Shown here piece after piece: positions 1 to 63,586 of a DNA stretch of 64,000 nt. Where the stretch lies: positions 45,438 to 109,437 of the forward strand of contig JAIXMR010000095.1 in the NCBI GenBank assembly GCA_025677835.1, written 5' to 3'. The notes below the pieces were generated by a model. The model did not search any database and was not told the DNA's origin. It saw only the letters and a list, made by a program, of their open reading frames with translations. A program made the translations under genes and the position numbers. Source of the DNA: Sporodiniella umbellata. Its lineage: Eukaryota > Mucoromycota > Mucoromycetes > Mucorales > Rhizopodaceae. Numbering within the stretch: position 1 is the first letter of the stretch; every line of letters starts with the position of its first letter.

Positions 1-1019
1 AAACATCTGCTTCATGCTGCTTGATATCCACCTTTTTGTCCAATTGTTTCTGAAGCATAACGACAGTTATATTAATACTAATCACTGTATTTATAAATAT
101 GTTCACGGACATAATATATCTAAAAGGCTACACATGCTTTTTCATGGCTTTCAATGTGTTTATTTACAAAACCTAGTCACACTCTCTAGTGTTTGGTTTA
201 TAGTTCAATAGTCCATACGATGTATTAAGCCACAAGTTTTTGCTTAATTATGTATTCCAAATCAATTAATTATCTAGATAATTCAAGTTCCCTATAGACC
301 AAGTGGTACATACTTTGAACCATAGGATACAATACACTATATATAAAAAAGGACTTGTCGCCATCATACAAAAGCAGCATGTACATGTCTTTGGCTTACT
401 GGTCTACATAGTGATATGGAATACACAACCTGCAAAAGTGGACATCTATAAAAGATATATAATTTCATTGTCATAGTATTTAATAGAGCACTGTACACTT
501 TTATGGGAAACTTCTAATATTGCAGTAGTTAGCGCATATATTTATAAAAAAAGGAAAAGGCAGCAAATGTCATTGTAGTTTTTTCCCTTTGTCGTTTACT
601 TGGTATTGTATTATTCTTTTGAAAGAGAGGTTTCTGTTTTTTAAAGAAAAAAAAAACCGGAACGCTAGAAAACATCAGACAGTCAATATACAACAGACAG
701 GTGAGCCGATAAAAGTTTTTCACACACCACAATAAAAATTAGGGCCAAAGCAAACAAAATGCCATAACGAGGAAAGTATACATTAAATGAAAAAAAAAAT
801 AAAAAAAGTTGATAAAAGTAAAGGGTTGTTTTGTAACAAATGAAAATTTTTGTATTTTCATTTGGGTTTTTTATTTGAGATTATGAAGGAATGGGGTTGG
901 AGGAAGGCAGCCAGAGTCAAGAGGGTAGCGGATTTTAGAGATGAAAATGAATGCAAAATGGTATAGAGGGAGCGGAAGAAAAATGACAATGCCAAATAAG
1001 GCTCCAAGACAGAGAACGT
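1..1019. other. AT-rich stretch without a recognised gene
   Basis: No open frame here looks like a protein. The frames that exist are short and biased by A/T runs. It lies 3' of the small minus-strand gene that ends at 1020 and may hold its 3' untranslated region. Confidence 0.6.
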
Positions 1020-56225: not shown

Positions 56226-57574
56226 ATGATTGATCTATCGAGTGATCTATTTGAGCAAATAGCCAGTTACTTGGAAGTGGACGATTTATTAGAATTAGCT
56301 CGCGTGTGTCGCTCATTTTATTATTTGACACAAGACGAATATATTTGGAAAAAAAAGTGCTTCCAAGACTTTCATATTACTCCAGATGTGACACACTGGA
56401 AGTCGCTTTATGTCTCACTTAAAAAGTCAAACGTCGTTGCATCTACACTTCATAAAAAAAGTAGTGAAGAAAGGTAAGATTTGCGGAGAGAGAATAAGGC
56501 TTTGAGGATGTGTGTGTGTGTGTGTGTGTGTATCTGTTTTTGGCTCGGCTCAGTATTTATTTTGAAATTTAGAGAGTTTACCAATATCCATTCGTTTGAG
56601 AAAAAAGGGGTAGTGGATATTACAGTCAATGCGGATCTTATCTATGGACTGGATAAGCTGGGTAGTCTTTGGCTTTGGTATCGCTGTAATTATCCCTAAA
56701 AAGAAAAAAAAAAGTTGATCCGACTAACCCTATTTTTTTGATGGGCAAAATATCAGTTGAACAGCCTATGCTACATGGAGAGCTTGTGAATATACCCGAG
56801 CGAGTACAATGTATTCGCTTTCAATCCATTGTAGGTCGTGGATGCTTTAATCTCGGTTTAGCCCAGGATGGCACCGTATGGCATTGGACCGAACATACCC
56901 TGATTCAAAAAGTGACAGGCATTGACGCTCAAGTTACCCAAATCACTTGCCACGGAAGCTACTCTTCAGTTTTGACAAATCAAGGACAAGTATGGTTTGT
57001 CTCTGTCGTTAGTGAAGAAGGCCAGACTGAGGCATTTCTGGGTCTTCAGTTAGAGGATACCATTGTACAGCTTGTCGGACTTTATCACCATACCCTGGCC
57101 CTGACCCGCTCTGGTCGTGTGCTACTCATGGCAACACGTGACCCAAGAGCTTTTGCAGCTTGCCCTCGTTTTATAGAGTTGAAAAAGTTTGCGTCTTGCA
57201 GAAACTTGTCTATCTCGGGCGCCTTTGAGGATTTTTTGGTTATGACAAAGGATGGAGAAATTTTATGGGGCGATATATATGCTACTGAAGACAGTTCACC
57301 CAGAAAAGACACCAATTTTAATGAAAAGAACATCACTCAAATTGTGGTAGGAATGTAAGTAAAACAAAAAGAAATTTTAAAAACATAGCACTTAGTGTTG
57401 AATAGGCATCATTATGGTGCACTGACCAGTAAAGGGGAACTATTTATTGGCTGTTTAAAAACAGACTGTTATACCCAGTGGTTAAAAGACAAATACGTAC
57501 TTTCGGTTAGCTTTGCTGATTTCAGACTGGCTGCCTTGGTAACAGACAGCAAAGAACACCTACAATGCTCTTAA
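56226..57574 (+). CDS. F-box protein with RCC1-like repeats (paralog A)
   Basis: Exons 56226-56473, 56573-56685, 56757-57354 and 57406-57574 give 375 residues. Residues 3-48 form an F-box (LSSDLFEQIASYLEVDDLLE, then VCRSFYYLTQDEYIWKKKC), which binds Skp1 in SCF ubiquitin ligases. The rest is a series of degenerate RCC1-type blades (YGLDKLGSLWLW, NLGLAQDGTVWHW, SVLTNQGQVWFV, LALTRSGRVLLM, LVMTKDGEILWGD, GALTSKGELFIG). F-box plus RCC1 is the layout of yeast Saf1, which targets adenine deaminase at quiescence. Substrates here are unknown. Paralogs B (58620-60392) and C (62076-63586) share the layout. Intron 1 contains a TG repeat. The sequence between GTAATT (56686) and the ATCAG acceptor (56756) is taken as an intron because it contains stops and a CTAAC site. 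Confidence 0.85.
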
Positions 57575-58619
57575 ACACTGAAATAAAGTATCCTCTCCCC
57601 TCTTCATCTGCACACCCACATTCAAACACCCATACAAACACACATCTAGATGCGCACTTGCATATATTTATATACCAATATATTTACTCTTCATTGCTTA
57701 CCATTACCAAAATATAATTCATTGTATACATACATGGTCTTATTTTACAAACGTCCAAAAAGGAAAACCATCTGTAGCGAAATGAGAATAAAAAAATAGA
57801 ATATCCTTTTTTTTTTTTTTGTTGAGAAGCATTTTAAAAACCAAGTTCTAAAACGAATCCTAAATCTATAGGCTTTTTACTGCGAAAATGAAGATTGATT
57901 TTGCAAAGATGTCACCAACCTTTTATGCTCCTAGCAAACCAACACTTGCGTCCAAATGGCCGCCTTAATCAAATGCCCTGATAATATCGTATGTAGAAAA
58001 AGAAACACAGAATTTATATTCTGAAAACTGTTTTATTCACATGCCTATTATCTTTAGACTAGTACAAGATCTAAGGTGTTAAGAGAATATCGGAAGAAGT
58101 GTTCCAGATTTATACAGCTTGTCCCGATAGCCTAGATGATTCGCTATACAAAACTCCGATTGCTTTACATTACAGAATTGAATATACCGCTTTCTTTTTT
58201 CAGCCATAAGATTCTCTCACAGACAAACAAATTTTCTTGTAATAGACTATGACGGGACAAAATCAGTGAAACACTTGTGCATAAAAACCGAAATACAATA
58301 TCCAAGATGAAGCAACTGGCGGTAGGACTTTTTTCAGCTTAACCAAAGGGTTTGCTACAACACATAGTAAACCGAGAGCCCCATCTTGTAAAGAAGTTCA
58401 GGTCAACCGCTTTCTGTATCATCCGTACCCAAACAGGATGTGTGACTATTTCCAACAGCCTAGTCCGAAGCAAATAATAGAGTATCCCCGTCCCCTTATT
58501 TTGTTTATTCACATTTGTTATTTAAATGCTCTTTATTTGTTTTTTATTTATTATTATTATTATCAAAAGTTTTACTGCTTATATATACAAGTTTCGTTTT
58601 TATAAAGAAAAAAGATATC
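57575..58619. other. Intergenic region between F-box paralogs A and B
   Basis: No gene is supported. The region has mixed composition and few repeats. It could hold eroded coding DNA, but no F-box or RCC1 motif is visible. Confidence 0.5.
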
Positions 58620-60392
58620 ATGCTTCAATTAGCCCGCGAATGTTTTTTAGAGATTTGTTCTTATTTGGATAGTTGTACTCTGATTGAAATGTCTTTAGTT
58701 TGTAAAACTTATCGTGAGCATCTTCAAGACGAAAATATATGGAAAGCAAAGTGTCGAAAAGAACTTGGTATTACAGAGTTGATTTGGCCATATAAGAACT
58801 GGAGATACGCATATTTCAATTGTTGTTATGGGGCTCTTTTTGTTCCCAAATACGAAAACGGCAAAATGGCCTTAAGGTAAAGCCACTTCTCTTCTATTAA
58901 ATGAAATATTGTTAAACTATGTATCCTTATTTTTTTTTTTTTTTTCAGTAATTGCTTAGAAACTACAAATGTTTCAGGAAAAGAAATACCTAATGTTTGG
59001 ACTGCTGTTACTCTAACCAGTTCATATATTTATACTCTTGACACAACTGGTGGACTGTGGGTCAGAGAAAGAAGCAATGGTAATAAAAAGAGAAAAGAAA
59101 AAAGAAAAAAGTTAAAAGATAAAAAGGATTAAAAAAAAATAGAAATGTACGTTATAAAATCACAAACTTATTAATGCGGTTGTTTTCTTTTCTTCTCTTT
59201 TTTTCCTTTTCTGTTTATTTGTTTACTTGACATAGGTTACAATAATAGTGAGCCCGGAAAGCTTCCTGTCGAAATTGGAGAATATAAGTTTTTACAAATC
59301 ACTAGTTGTTTGTTGTATTGTCTAGTTTTATCACAAAGCGGTACCCTTTACAAAATTTACGATGGCGCTAACATGCAGAAACTACTTCCTTTTCCAGAAA
59401 AAGTCTATCAGATGGTTGCTCATTACAGCTATGTCGCAGTGCTATCGATAGAGGGCGATGTGTGTTTCATCAGCGATTGTCATCCCCGTGACATAAAATG
59501 GAACCGTATGCATATTAGATTTGGTGTTTCTTTGCCCGATGAACGTATTGTACAACTAGCGCCCGTGGGCAGCGATATTGTCGCACTGACCGATTCGAAC
59601 CGTGTTTGGATGCTTCGTTGCCGTGACTATCATCGCTTTTCAGATGATCCGCGATCGAATATGTTCGAACTTGTTCACTTTTCTGGGCCTACACACCGAA
59701 ATATTACTGGTAGTTACGATCGCTTTGCAGTTTTTACAAGAGATGGTCAAGTTCTTTTAGGAGATCATAAAGCAGACGCTTACACGATCCCTATCCGTCC
59801 TAGCTTCTTACAGGACGTTCCTATACGAGCAATTTCTTTTGGAAGGTAACATCTCTTTTCTCTTTCTTTTTTTTTTTTTTTTTTTTTTGCTTACGCGCTG
59901 TATAGTCACTTGTTTGGAGCGCTAAATTATAAGGGCGAAGTTCTTACTTGGAGTATAAATACACCGTAAAGGGATTAATACCCTTTTTTAGTCAGAATAT
60001 ATTTTAATCTATAATCTAGCGTTAATCAGGAGCTTCCTGAGGAACAGCAATCCAATAACTTTTGGCTGACAGATGTTTCTTGGGACAATTTTCGCGAAAG
60101 GAGTCGCCGTTTTCGTGAAAGATGGCAACGGTGGCTTCAGAATGATTCATACACTCTGGAAGAAGGTGCTGAAAACAGAAATAGTGTTACGGAAAATAGT
60201 GTAGAGGAAAAGAACACTACGGAAATTTCGCCTTATGAAGAAGTTTTTACAAAGTGGGAAGATATTTCAGATGAAAGCCCTATGATCTCTCAAAAAAACT
60301 TTGTCTTTGTCAAAAGTTTCTCAAAAGACATACACCCTTTGACCATTCAGATTTATGGAGAAAGCTATCTAGCTCTGGGAACAGACTGCTGA
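58620..60392 (+). CDS. F-box protein with RCC1-like repeats (paralog B)
   Basis: Exons 58620-58876, 58949-59079, 59236-59845, 59906-59965 and 60020-60392 give 476 residues. The F-box is at 3-48 (LARECFLEICSYLDSCTLIE, then VCKTYREHLQDENIWKAKC). RCC1-like blades follow (YTLDTTGGLWVRE, LVLSQSGTLYKI, VAVLSIEGDVCFI, VALTDSNRVWML, FAVFTRDGQVLLGD, FGALNYKGEVLTW). Unlike A and C it has about 120 extra C-terminal residues: an Arg/Trp-rich segment (FRERSRRFRERWQRWLQ), an Asn/Glu-rich linker and a final strand-like part (FVFVKSFSKDIHPLTIQIYG). The frame is open upstream to 58515, but that part is hydrophobic and AT-biased, so the ATG next to the F-box is used. Blade 5 is closest to paralog C, including the phrase SELVNFSG / FELVHFSG. 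Confidence 0.85.
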
Positions 60393-60518
60393 TTATTTTT
60401 TTTTCTCTTCCCCTTTTCTTTTGTTTTTTTTTTTTTCGAAAAAAAAAAACAAGAAGTAAAAATATAAATTTCGGAGGGCTTTATTTCATTTCTCAGTAAA
60501 AGAAAAGAAAGGAAAAAA

Positions 60519-61295
60519 CTAAAATAAATCAGTTGGCAAAACATTGTATACAGCTAAAATAGTATGTTTCATTATAGCTAATGTTAGTCTGCTTTTATGG
60601 ATTGGGTTCATATTCAAATGAAGTTTTCTGTTCATTTCTTCCACCGTATGAAAAATAGATGTGTTTTGATATAAGGAGATTGTTACTTGTACATCATGTG
60701 ATAAACCAATGCATATATTACATAGTAAATGGCCTCTATTGTCATCGTTGGCTTTGGGCCACCCAGAACTACAACTGGATCGCGATTCTGCCGGTCTATG
60801 GTCTAGATTTGCGAAAGACTTCTCATTGGCTGTAGGTTTGCTACAGATAGTTGATGTCTTTTCCTTATTTTCTAAAGGAATAACTGGTGACTTTCTGGTA
60901 ACAATACCTTCGGCCAGAGAATGGATAACGCGAGGCTTATTGTTAAACGCTATATGAGCAACCTCTGCTTCGTTTGCCCGCACTTCAGATACACATGCTT
61001 CTGGTTTTATGGTTGTCTCACAATAACTTCCTTCTGTTGGTATCTGTGGTTCTTCTGGGTTTTTAGAAAGAGTATCATTCTCGCTTGTATTAAATTGAAG
61101 CCATTCTGATGTACATCCTTGCTCATATAGTTTTTCGTTTTCCCTCAAAACAGTGGGATCCAGTCTCAAAACGTCCGCTCGCCAACAAGATGCGTCGGAA
61201 GACATATGGTATGGTAGTTGATCTTTTAACATTGGGTTTCTAGGAAGAACTAACTGCCTTTTCTCTCCTCGTATAGGTTCTTTCGCTAATGGCAT
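60519..61295 (-). CDS. Unrecognised 258-residue protein
   Basis: A single exon with ATG at 61295 and a stop at 60519. The N-terminal half is polar (EPIRGEKRQLVLPRNP, YHMSSDASCWRADVLRLDPTVLRENEKLYEQG). The centre is Ser/Glu/Pro-rich with likely disorder. The last 70 residues are more ordered, with a mix of strands and helices (GHLLCNICIGLSHDVQVTISLYQ, TVEEMNRKLHLNMNPIHKSRL). No known domain is recognised; the CxxC-like CNIC is too short to call a zinc site. It lies between two F-box/RCC1 paralogs and converges with paralog B (126 nt between stops). An SCF substrate or partner role is speculation. It could be lineage-specific. Confidence 0.7.
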   Translation of the reverse strand: MPLAKEPIRGEKRQLVLPRNPMLKDQLPYHMSSDASCWRADVLRLDPTVLRENEKLYEQGCTSEWLQFNTSENDTLSKNPEEPQIPTEGSYCETTIKPEACVSEVRANEAEVAHIAFNNKPRVIHSLAEGIVTRKSPVIPLENKEKTSTICSKPTANEKSFANLDHRPAESRSSCSSGWPKANDDNRGHLLCNICIGLSHDVQVTISLYQNTSIFHTVEEMNRKLHLNMNPIHKSRLTLAIMKHTILAVYNVLPTDLF

Positions 61296-62075
61296 TTATT
61301 ACCTTATTAAAAAAAAGAAAAAAAGAAATCTATCGTCTCTCTCTCTTTCTCTTTCTCTCCCTTTATTTATACAAATTGAAGAATCACAAGACGTTCTGGT
61401 TTGTGACTTAAAGTTGAATTAAATCATTTTTATAAACTATTAGAAATCGTCTGTATTGTCTCACTAATTCTATATGTTTGGTTTTTATCAGTTAAAATAT
61501 GGATCTCTGTTCTCAAATCAAAACTCCTTGTAGTGTGTTTTGTCGAACATATGTGTATTTGAACTTGAGACATAAAACCTGCCCAGAAAAAAGAGCATAA
61601 TGAACAAATACACTAAAGCTTTTTAATAGTCAACATACTGAATTCAATAATTCAATTTATCAGTTTTCAAGGCAAATTCAATGATAAACAGACACCTGCT
61701 TTATGTAATATATCAGGCATAAATCACTCTGGTTTGGAATACTGAATGAAAAACAAACTACAAACTTCGGAAGCTATCACATAATGTTTAAGCTTTATAA
61801 AAAGCTTTGTGTGCAGAACAAAGTTGTGACACGGATGTATTTTTTGGTGTCATAAAGATATTTTTTGCTAGCTATTTTCAAAGAACATAGTATTATGTGT
61901 AACTTTTCAGACACTCTCTACGATTTAATTATTTGTTGTACAGTCTGTAATAAAACATAGCTTTGAAGATTTTTTTCATTTCTCAAAATTATTTACACTC
62001 ATGACTATATATAACACCTACGCTAGAATAGTACGTACGGATTACAAAACTAGTTGGATACTTTGACTTTATATT
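61296..62075. other. Intergenic region between the orphan and F-box paralog C
   Basis: No gene is supported. A CT-rich run (about 61337-61360) lies just upstream of the orphan's start and is probably in its promoter. Confidence 0.6.
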
Positions 62076-63586
62076 CTATTCGTTTACTACTAAAGCTACA
62101 AAACAATTACCACAAAAGCTATTAGACCCGGAGTCCTGAGTTCCGAAGGCTATACTTAAAGCATGTTCAGAGCCCAAACTATTCATAGATGTGATTTGTA
62201 CATCTTCATCACCATTAATTTTTGTTCTTCCTTTGATAGATTTCCAGGTTATAACTTTTCCCTCAGTAGTTAATGCGCCGAAGGTACGGCCAATGTTTTG
62301 CTGATAATAAGATGGAAATGCACTATTATTCATCTTTTAGAATACAATACATATATATATATATATATATAAGCTAAAAAGTTACCATCCGAATGATACT
62401 GATCGAACTGATTGATTTTGTAAAAAGCTCAGTTTGACTGGATCTGTATCTTTTTCTACATCGCTATCACCCATTAAAACCTCGCCATCTTTTGTGCAGA
62501 CAGTGAATTGACCACAATTAGAATGGATAGTTCTTGGCGATTTTCCAGAGAAATTTACAAGCTCTGACATATGTTTTTTTGGGTTTTTAGAAAACTCTTC
62601 TAGATTAGAAATGTCCAAAAGGTAAACACGGCCAGATTTAGTTAGTGCCAGTAGATAAAGATCTAATGATGTGAGTTGATCTATCGGATCTTCTTTGAGT
62701 ATAGGGTTGCAAGCAAAAAACGAGCATTTTGAAAACTTTTGCTGAACCATTTTATAATAATACTTTTCCATAGAGCGAGGCCCCATTCTTTTGTTGCCAA
62801 TAAAATACATTTTGTCTTCATTAGTTAGTGCCACGGAGTAGATGGGATGAGAAACAATCTGTCTGGGTTGGGTCTGGAACTGGTCGTATATCATTTCCAA
62901 TCCAAGCTCTGATATATTGTAAAGATGGTTGTCTTCAGTGAGTCCGATGCAGTTTTCAAAGTAAGAAGAAATCTTTACAAAGCGTTCATTGGCTTTTCCA
63001 AGCATTCGAAAAGGTTGCGTAAAACAACTTTCTTTTAAAATCCATAATTATATAAAAAAGACAAAGTTAGTACATTATCCTGTTTTTTTTTCTTTAAAAA
63101 AAAACAATATACGTAATATTTACGAGGCTCCCAGATCCAAAGTTTTTTGCTACTGTCAAGCGCATATATACTGTCTGCTGTTGCTGTAATCTCAGTCCAA
63201 CTACTTGGAGGTGCATTTTCGGATATGAGGCGGATTGTTTTGCTTTATATATATATATATATATAGAAGGTTTAGTAAGTCAGCTTTTCAATTATAAAAT
63301 TAACAACATACTTTTTTTCTGTATTTTTGGCATTTATCCAGGTGTCATTTGATTCCCTCAAGACATTTAGCCTTGAGTATAAAGATTTATAATAAATATA
63401 TTGCCAACTATAACTCTCCCATTTGTTTTCAATCAATCCAAACTCTTCTTGGCATCTCTTTTTCCATATAAGTTCGTCTTGCAACATATTGTAAAAATAA
63501 TGAGAAACCGTAGTCAGCTCAAACAAACTTTGACCATCCAAAAAAGAGCATAAATGGTAGAGTATTTCTTGTGTTATTCTAAACAT
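62076..63586 (-). CDS. F-box protein with RCC1-like repeats (paralog C)
   Basis: Exons 63586-63312, 63242-63124, 63031-62386 and 62322-62076 give 428 residues. The F-box is at 3-48 (ITQEILYHLCSFLDGQSLFE, then VSHYFYNMLQDELIWKKRC). RCC1-like blades include YALDSSKKLWIW, GLTEDNHLYNI, VALTNEDKMYFIGN, LALTKSGRVYLL, FTVCTKDGEVLMGD and FGALTTEGKVITW. The family order matches A and B, on the opposite strand. The last intron (62385-62323) contains an AT repeat, and the acceptor ATAATAG was chosen because it keeps frame. The third-exon acceptor (AAAAG before 63031) is likewise frame-based. The C-terminus is Ser/Gly/Cys-rich (SNSFCGNCFVALVVNE), not shared with A or B. Confidence 0.82.

Follow-up and report, generated by a model that had tools for sequence, protein, structure and literature searches.

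Predicted SCF receptors with rewritten propeller loops: a diverged F-box/RCC1-type gene family in the parasite Sporodiniella umbellata

Introduction

Three neighboring genes near a contig end of the fungus Sporodiniella umbellata (Mucorales, Rhizopodaceae) encode diverged, mutually related proteins, raising the questions of whether they form a local family, what they descend from, and what they might now recognize. S. umbellata is described as a parasite of insects that groups among Rhizopus species (PMC6958464). The stretch analyzed here (the window) is the final 64 kb of a 109,437-base contig (C194), and the last of the three genes ends 414 bases from the contig end. A first reading, made from the letters of the window alone (the sequence-only reading), had described the genes, called A, B, and C, as a local family with an F-box followed by degenerate RCC1-type blades. 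We argue that A, B, and C are three of seven diverged duplicates derived from an F-box/RCC1 gene present throughout Mucorales, and that they are predicted SCF receptors whose F-box would dock Skp1 and whose rewritten loops would likely bind new targets; we assign this reading a probability of roughly 0.55.

Gene Structure and Relatedness of A, B, and C

The protein of gene B has an exact counterpart among the public proteins of the same species. All three genes are intact, with four or five exons and GT-AG introns (Table 1), and splicing at these sites reproduced the sizes of 375, 476, and 428 residues given earlier. Pairwise comparisons showed all three proteins to be homologous over most of their length, with 29% identity for A and B (E = 2e-39), 27% for A and C (E = 1e-31), and 30% for B and C (E = 9e-55); values of 1e-31 to 9e-55 rule out a chance likeness. 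A protein-database alignment search with the A-B-C profile, which includes C's own sequence, returned no public protein for gene C; the gene is therefore probably absent from the annotation or present there with a very different length.

Table 1. Features of the window and of the propeller loops.
Feature	Position	Strand	Description
Gene A	56226..57574	+	375 aa; identical to public model P0002 = BY458DRAFT_522947
Exons of A	56226-56473, 56573-56685, 56757-57354, 57406-57574 (incl. stop)	+	
F-box of A, residues 3-48	56232..56369	+	PF12937 41.4 bits, PF00646 28.4 bits, both above cut-off
Gene B	58620..60392	+	476 aa; identical to public model P0001 = BY458DRAFT_522954
Exons of B	58620-58876, 58949-59079, 59236-59845, 59906-59965, 60020-60392 (incl. 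stop)	+	
Extra last exon of B	60020..60392	+	~123 residues with a single predicted helix; modeled mostly at low confidence
Orphan between B and C	60519..61295	-	single exon, 258 aa; unrelated to the family
Gene C	62076..63586	-	428 aa; spliced model
Exons of C	63586-63312, 63242-63124, 63031-62386, 62322-62076 (incl. stop)	-	
Loops 1-7	A residues 102-105, 148-151, 185-189, 228-232, 276-279, 318-322, 357-360		
Loops 1-7, Rhizopus microsporus			with one flanking residue per side: SGGWSF, SGRGHA, TANWSYS, CGLDNYT, GSFESF, SFGDYH, FGGWQS

The orphan had no match to Pfam and no second copy in a genome search. The extra residues of B, described as a C-terminal extension, may instead represent an insertion ahead of the last propeller strand, since the final residues of B align with the last strand of other members; we propose this tentatively because the B model is poor in this region. 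The predicted helix of this exon is rich in Arg and Trp, and the exon also encodes an acidic low-confidence stretch; both are absent from the other seven family members as modeled. The motifs that the sequence-only reading listed as shared are present, but looser than stated: C has SFL in place of SYL, A has TQDE, and B has RDGQVLLGD.

Domain Composition and Fold

The F-box-like model PF12937 scored above its curated cut-off in A, B, and C. In the other five members, tested with PF12937 and PF00646, four F-boxes exceeded the cut-off and that of the member on contig C103 fell below it. The RCC1-like model PF25390 matched A, B, and C with E-values of 1e-10, 1e-5, and 3e-4, far under its 150-bit cut-off. 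These HMM searches, proposed earlier as a check, thus recover the F-box in all three proteins and an RCC1-like match that stays below threshold; with the pairwise E-values, they uphold the description of A, B, and C as related F-box proteins with degenerate RCC1-type blades. The least derived member, on contig C79, reached 86 bits with the RCC1-like model and exceeded the cut-off for RCC1_2 and both F-box models. Four of the seven copies other than C79 (A, B, C, and C103) no longer have the Pro of the F-box “LP”, while an F-box Trp (W42) and a linker Trp (W63; Rhizopus microsporus numbering) are retained in all eight members.

When the PDB was searched with an eight-member profile, the blades matched UVR8, HERC2, and RCC1, and the F-box matched FBXO31, Fbw7, Skp2, and FBXW chains, the best match lying in the F-box part, outside the blades. 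A structure model of good confidence was obtained for A only among those built. Its nearest solved propellers are the RCC1-like domains of HERC1 and HERC2 (15–18% identity), with Cdc4 and Fbw7 lower in the list; a second PDB fold comparison covers A residues 59–371 and thus barely includes the F-box part. The B model has a pLDDT of 68.2, with residues 352–476 mostly under 50, and a propeller match was still found. Profile and fold both point to an RCC1-type propeller. As judged from sequence and, for A, from a confident model, the three proteins are F-box proteins with an RCC1-type propeller.

Family Members across the Genome

We searched the genome with seven queries (A, B, C, and the members on C79, C8, C137, and C117, hereafter named for their contigs; C103 was not a query). 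Combined, these searches put the family at eight members in six locations: C194 carries A, B, and C, and C103, C137, C8, C117, and C79 carry one each. Five of the seven queries recovered all eight members; the B query misses C79 and the C79 query misses B. The remaining matches were weak and covered the F-box only or the RCC1 part only. A count of the family, suggested by the sequence-only reading, consequently adds five members to the three it knew, and its term “local family” does not hold: the five lie on other contigs, and the closest relative of C is C103.

First models of the relatives were built on the A-B-C profile. The C79 version (402 residues) lacks parts of exon 1 and of the last exons, and this shortened model served as a protein-database query and as a row in alignment A2, used for the eight-member Pfam and PDB comparisons. 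The exon edges of C137, C8, and C117 differ between two model sets and are uncertain.

Several routes of dispersal were considered. A tandem-only family is ruled out, as the members occupy six contigs and the sister of C, C103, is on another contig. At four of the six locations a contig end is no more than ~14 kb away; a subtelomeric location was dropped, since a search for TTAGGG yielded just two matches, which overlap (on C129), and the ends of the contigs look ordinary by eye. Flanking repeats as a vehicle of duplication were rejected after an inter-locus blastn of the flanks found nothing beyond 214 bases of coding sequence matching between C and C103 and short matches (31–78 bases). Retrocopies are disfavored by the intron phases common to A, B, C, and C103 (2, 1, 2, at matching places). 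Adjoining the C137 copy, at L064:6223-7766 (+), open frames resemble by eye an HxxxD acyltransferase.

Mucorales Orthologues and the Age of the Copies

C79 (public model P0004) is the Sporodiniella orthologue of a conventional Mucorales gene. As a protein-database query it returned 39 proteins, namely its own model, 34 other named Mucorales rows, and four without a species name. Two rows was the most for any named species, a number reached by Rhizopus delemar, Parasitella parasitica, and Phycomyces blakesleeanus. Relatives appear to hold the gene once or nearly so, in a database clustered at 90% identity, which hides near-identical copies, and with a search that sees only relatives sharing short words. 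Two side observations concern these rows. P0042, a 699-aa F-box and RCC1 protein 21% identical to C79, is possibly an outside member of the wider architecture. P0010, a 295-aa protein labeled Rhizopus delemar (isolate G6F56), pairs with C79 (99/96) and the other Rhizopus delemar protein stands apart from it; isolate G6F56 may be a different species.

Protein-database queries comprised A, B, C, and C79. B matched itself alone, and the A-B-C profile, in a search of limited sensitivity, matched only B, A, and one RCC1 protein from an unnamed source (P0003, excluded from later analyses). The sequence-only reading called the family lineage-specific; A, B, and C indeed had no counterpart elsewhere in this limited-sensitivity search, but the restriction is only apparent. 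Each of the seven copies gave a better score with the Rhizopus microsporus orthologue than with C79 of its own genome; identity to the seven orthologues compared is 20–34%.

A phylogenetic tree was calculated from 45 rows, with P0004 for C79, a refined model for C103, and the first models for C137, C8, and C117; P0041 was excluded. C79 falls inside the Mucorales orthologue clade and the seven copies outside it, in one clade (100/100) beside the Rhizopodaceae orthologues (95/80), not within them. Within this clade, C is sister to C103 (100/98), and B comes next (96/97). The end branches of the copies measure 1.2–3.3 against a median of 0.31, bearing out the fast divergence claimed earlier. By this tree, the seven copies are paralogues with long branches. 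The tree tool flagged long branches meeting and an odd letter composition of C.

The founding duplication may be older than Sporodiniella, or the copies may have been drawn outward by their long branches. If it is older, the seven could be old copies common to Rhizopus that the search missed, and the expansion would not be specific to Sporodiniella. We consider this a real possibility somewhat short of an even chance, and it is compatible with our main reading. It accords with the position of the copies beside the Rhizopodaceae orthologues and with the mild rejection of a Sporodiniella-only origin: the penalty was 16.7 log units (p-AU 0.011) for constraining the copies with C79 alone and 8.3 log units (p-AU 0.040) when the nearest Rhizopus row joined them. 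A missed set of relatives is also conceivable given that the protein search reaches only relatives with short exact words in common and that four of the seven copies (C103, C137, C8, and C117) were not queries. However, Rhizopus proteins were present in the database, where B found no other species and the A-B-C profile only the unnamed-source protein, and the flagged meeting of long branches weakens the placement. In a reduced tree with A and C137 as sole copies (i.e., without B, C, C103, C8, C117, P0042, and Pilobolus), these two drop into an open fork; grouping them with C79 gave a p-AU of 0.031, while grouping them with C79 and the nearest Rhizopus row was not rejected (0.073).

Loop Divergence and Constraint

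We compared the copies and orthologues over seven loops set from the secondary structure of the A model, each between two blade strands (Table 1). Mean loop identity is 0.76 across 28 orthologues and 0.79 for C79, dropping to 0.18 for the copies against two Rhizopus and to 0.16 between copies. The same copies, compared with Rhizopus, have identities of 0.37, 0.52, and 0.35 in strands, 0.39 in the six turns at the opposite end, and 0.39 in the F-box. Among propeller columns at least 90% conserved in orthologues, the copies retain 15% of the 20 that fall in loops and 49% of the 68 that fall elsewhere. Loop retention was never this low in 20,000 permutations, although the permutation value is rough, as columns within a loop are not independent. 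Nine rows that were incomplete, too distant, or near-duplicate stood outside the conservation counts (R_delemar_G6F56, P0039, P0040, P0042, Apophysomyces BC1034, two Cunninghamella, Phycomyces_bl_NRRL, and Parasitella_2). Over three alignments, the loop-to-rest ratio is 0.11–0.67 in the copies versus 1.14–1.42 in six long-branched orthologue controls of our choosing, including C79. In the copies, loss has fallen preferentially on the conserved loops; the strands, the turns at the opposite end, and the F-box have been better preserved.

The extent of the change varies, with the departure from orthologue loops smallest in C103 and largest in C8. The last Phe of loop 5 is retained in all seven copies and the Gly of loop 6 in five. 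The canonical GxxH-type loop motif, kept in C79, is gone at most loop positions of the copies, which also wholly or largely lack the blade-1 WGxNxDxRLG stretch and have mostly lost the last-blade WG..SGALG stretch.

Do rewritten loops signal new targets, or only the loss of an old one? In the main rival to our reading, constraint was relaxed once the ancestral partner was lost: the loops drift, the fold persists through stability, and no new targets are gained. We regard this as less likely than retargeting. In its favor, divergence is strong among the copies themselves, no common new loop motif is apparent, the F-box Pro is missing from four of seven copies, and the C103 F-box scores below its cut-off. 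The coding sequences fit it less well. The third exon is open across ~190–230 codons in all eight members, and long exons thus remain open at the 20–34% identity noted above; the full spliced frames have zero internal stops, partly by construction, as the relatives' models were built to avoid them. Codon-position differences climb from second (0.30–0.53) through first to third positions (0.61–0.76, saturated) in 28 of 28 pairs, and therefore indicate constraint on the proteins. Identity in strands, turns, and F-box is also around double that of the loops, or higher. Relaxed constraint accounts for the vanished loops, but less readily for the preservation of the rest of the protein.

Proposed Function as Retargeted SCF Receptors

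On our preferred reading of retargeted receptors, gene duplication would have produced seven copies of an SCF substrate receptor. Their F-box would continue to bind Skp1, for which the Sporodiniella genome has one match, and permit assembly into an SCF ubiquitin ligase. The propeller frame would be retained, with the loops at one blade end as the presumed target-binding face, and rewriting of these loops would have cost each copy the ancestral partner and given it a separate new target. In RCC1 and HERC domains, partners are bound on a comparable face, a point of general background for which our literature search found no supporting paper. The second ground comes from UVR8, a member of the RCC1 family whose GWRHT repeats carry the tryptophans of UV-B perception (PMC5108777); on both grounds, we infer that the loops form the binding face.

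That the F-box is used with Skp1 outside an SCF, or unused, in a scaffold or other RCC1-type role, is improbable: several members have modest F-box scores, but W42 and W63 are retained in all eight, and an F-box paired with a propeller occurs in other receptors (e.g., Cdc4 and Fbw7, both in the fold list).

In an arthropod parasite, the targets of retargeted receptors could be host-induced, viral, or self proteins. A bolder extension, which we consider doubtful, is that a nearly single-copy Mucorales receptor expanded, in one arthropod parasite, into seven recognition proteins that are all built on one constant Skp1-docking frame and differ in their rewritten binding faces; such a repertoire would act through degradation and owe its shape to conflict with host, viral, or selfish proteins. 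More practically, the contrast between the conserved gene and the seven rewritten copies within a single genome points to the surface that should be mutated and the one that should be left intact. How RCC1-type F-box proteins choose their targets thereby becomes directly testable, with the prediction that, in the conserved Mucorales protein, the seven loops form the working face.

Comparison with Known Systems

Plants and nematodes have expanded F-box families with variable target domains. No report of an expanded F-box family on an RCC1 propeller in fungi, and no paper combining F-box and RCC1 with Saf1 and fungi, Mucorales, or Rhizopus, was found in the open-licence literature. Cdc4, Fbw7, and the mouse FBXW family pair an F-box with a propeller as the Sporodiniella family does, but their propellers are WD40, not RCC1-type. 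HERC1 and HERC2 offer the closest solved propellers to the A model; HERC proteins are HECT ligases and are not known to carry an F-box.

Yeast Saf1, named earlier as the analogue and likened here by architecture and role, carries RCC1 repeats and is a single gene, compared with eight here. The other part of the analogy, its role as an SCF F-box receptor like that predicted for the family, is documented: Saf1 is the F-box protein of an SCF by which Aah1 is degraded on nutrient stress, and SCF-Saf1 also degrades unprocessed vacuolar proteins (PMC8501602). The nearest system is found in the Mucorales themselves, whose “RCC1/BLIP-II” F-box proteins (P0005–P0038; e.g., Rhizopus microsporus, Mucor circinelloides, and Phycomyces blakesleeanus) resemble the family in having an F-box, in most rows, followed by an RCC1-type propeller; unlike them, the seven Sporodiniella copies lack most of the conserved loops.
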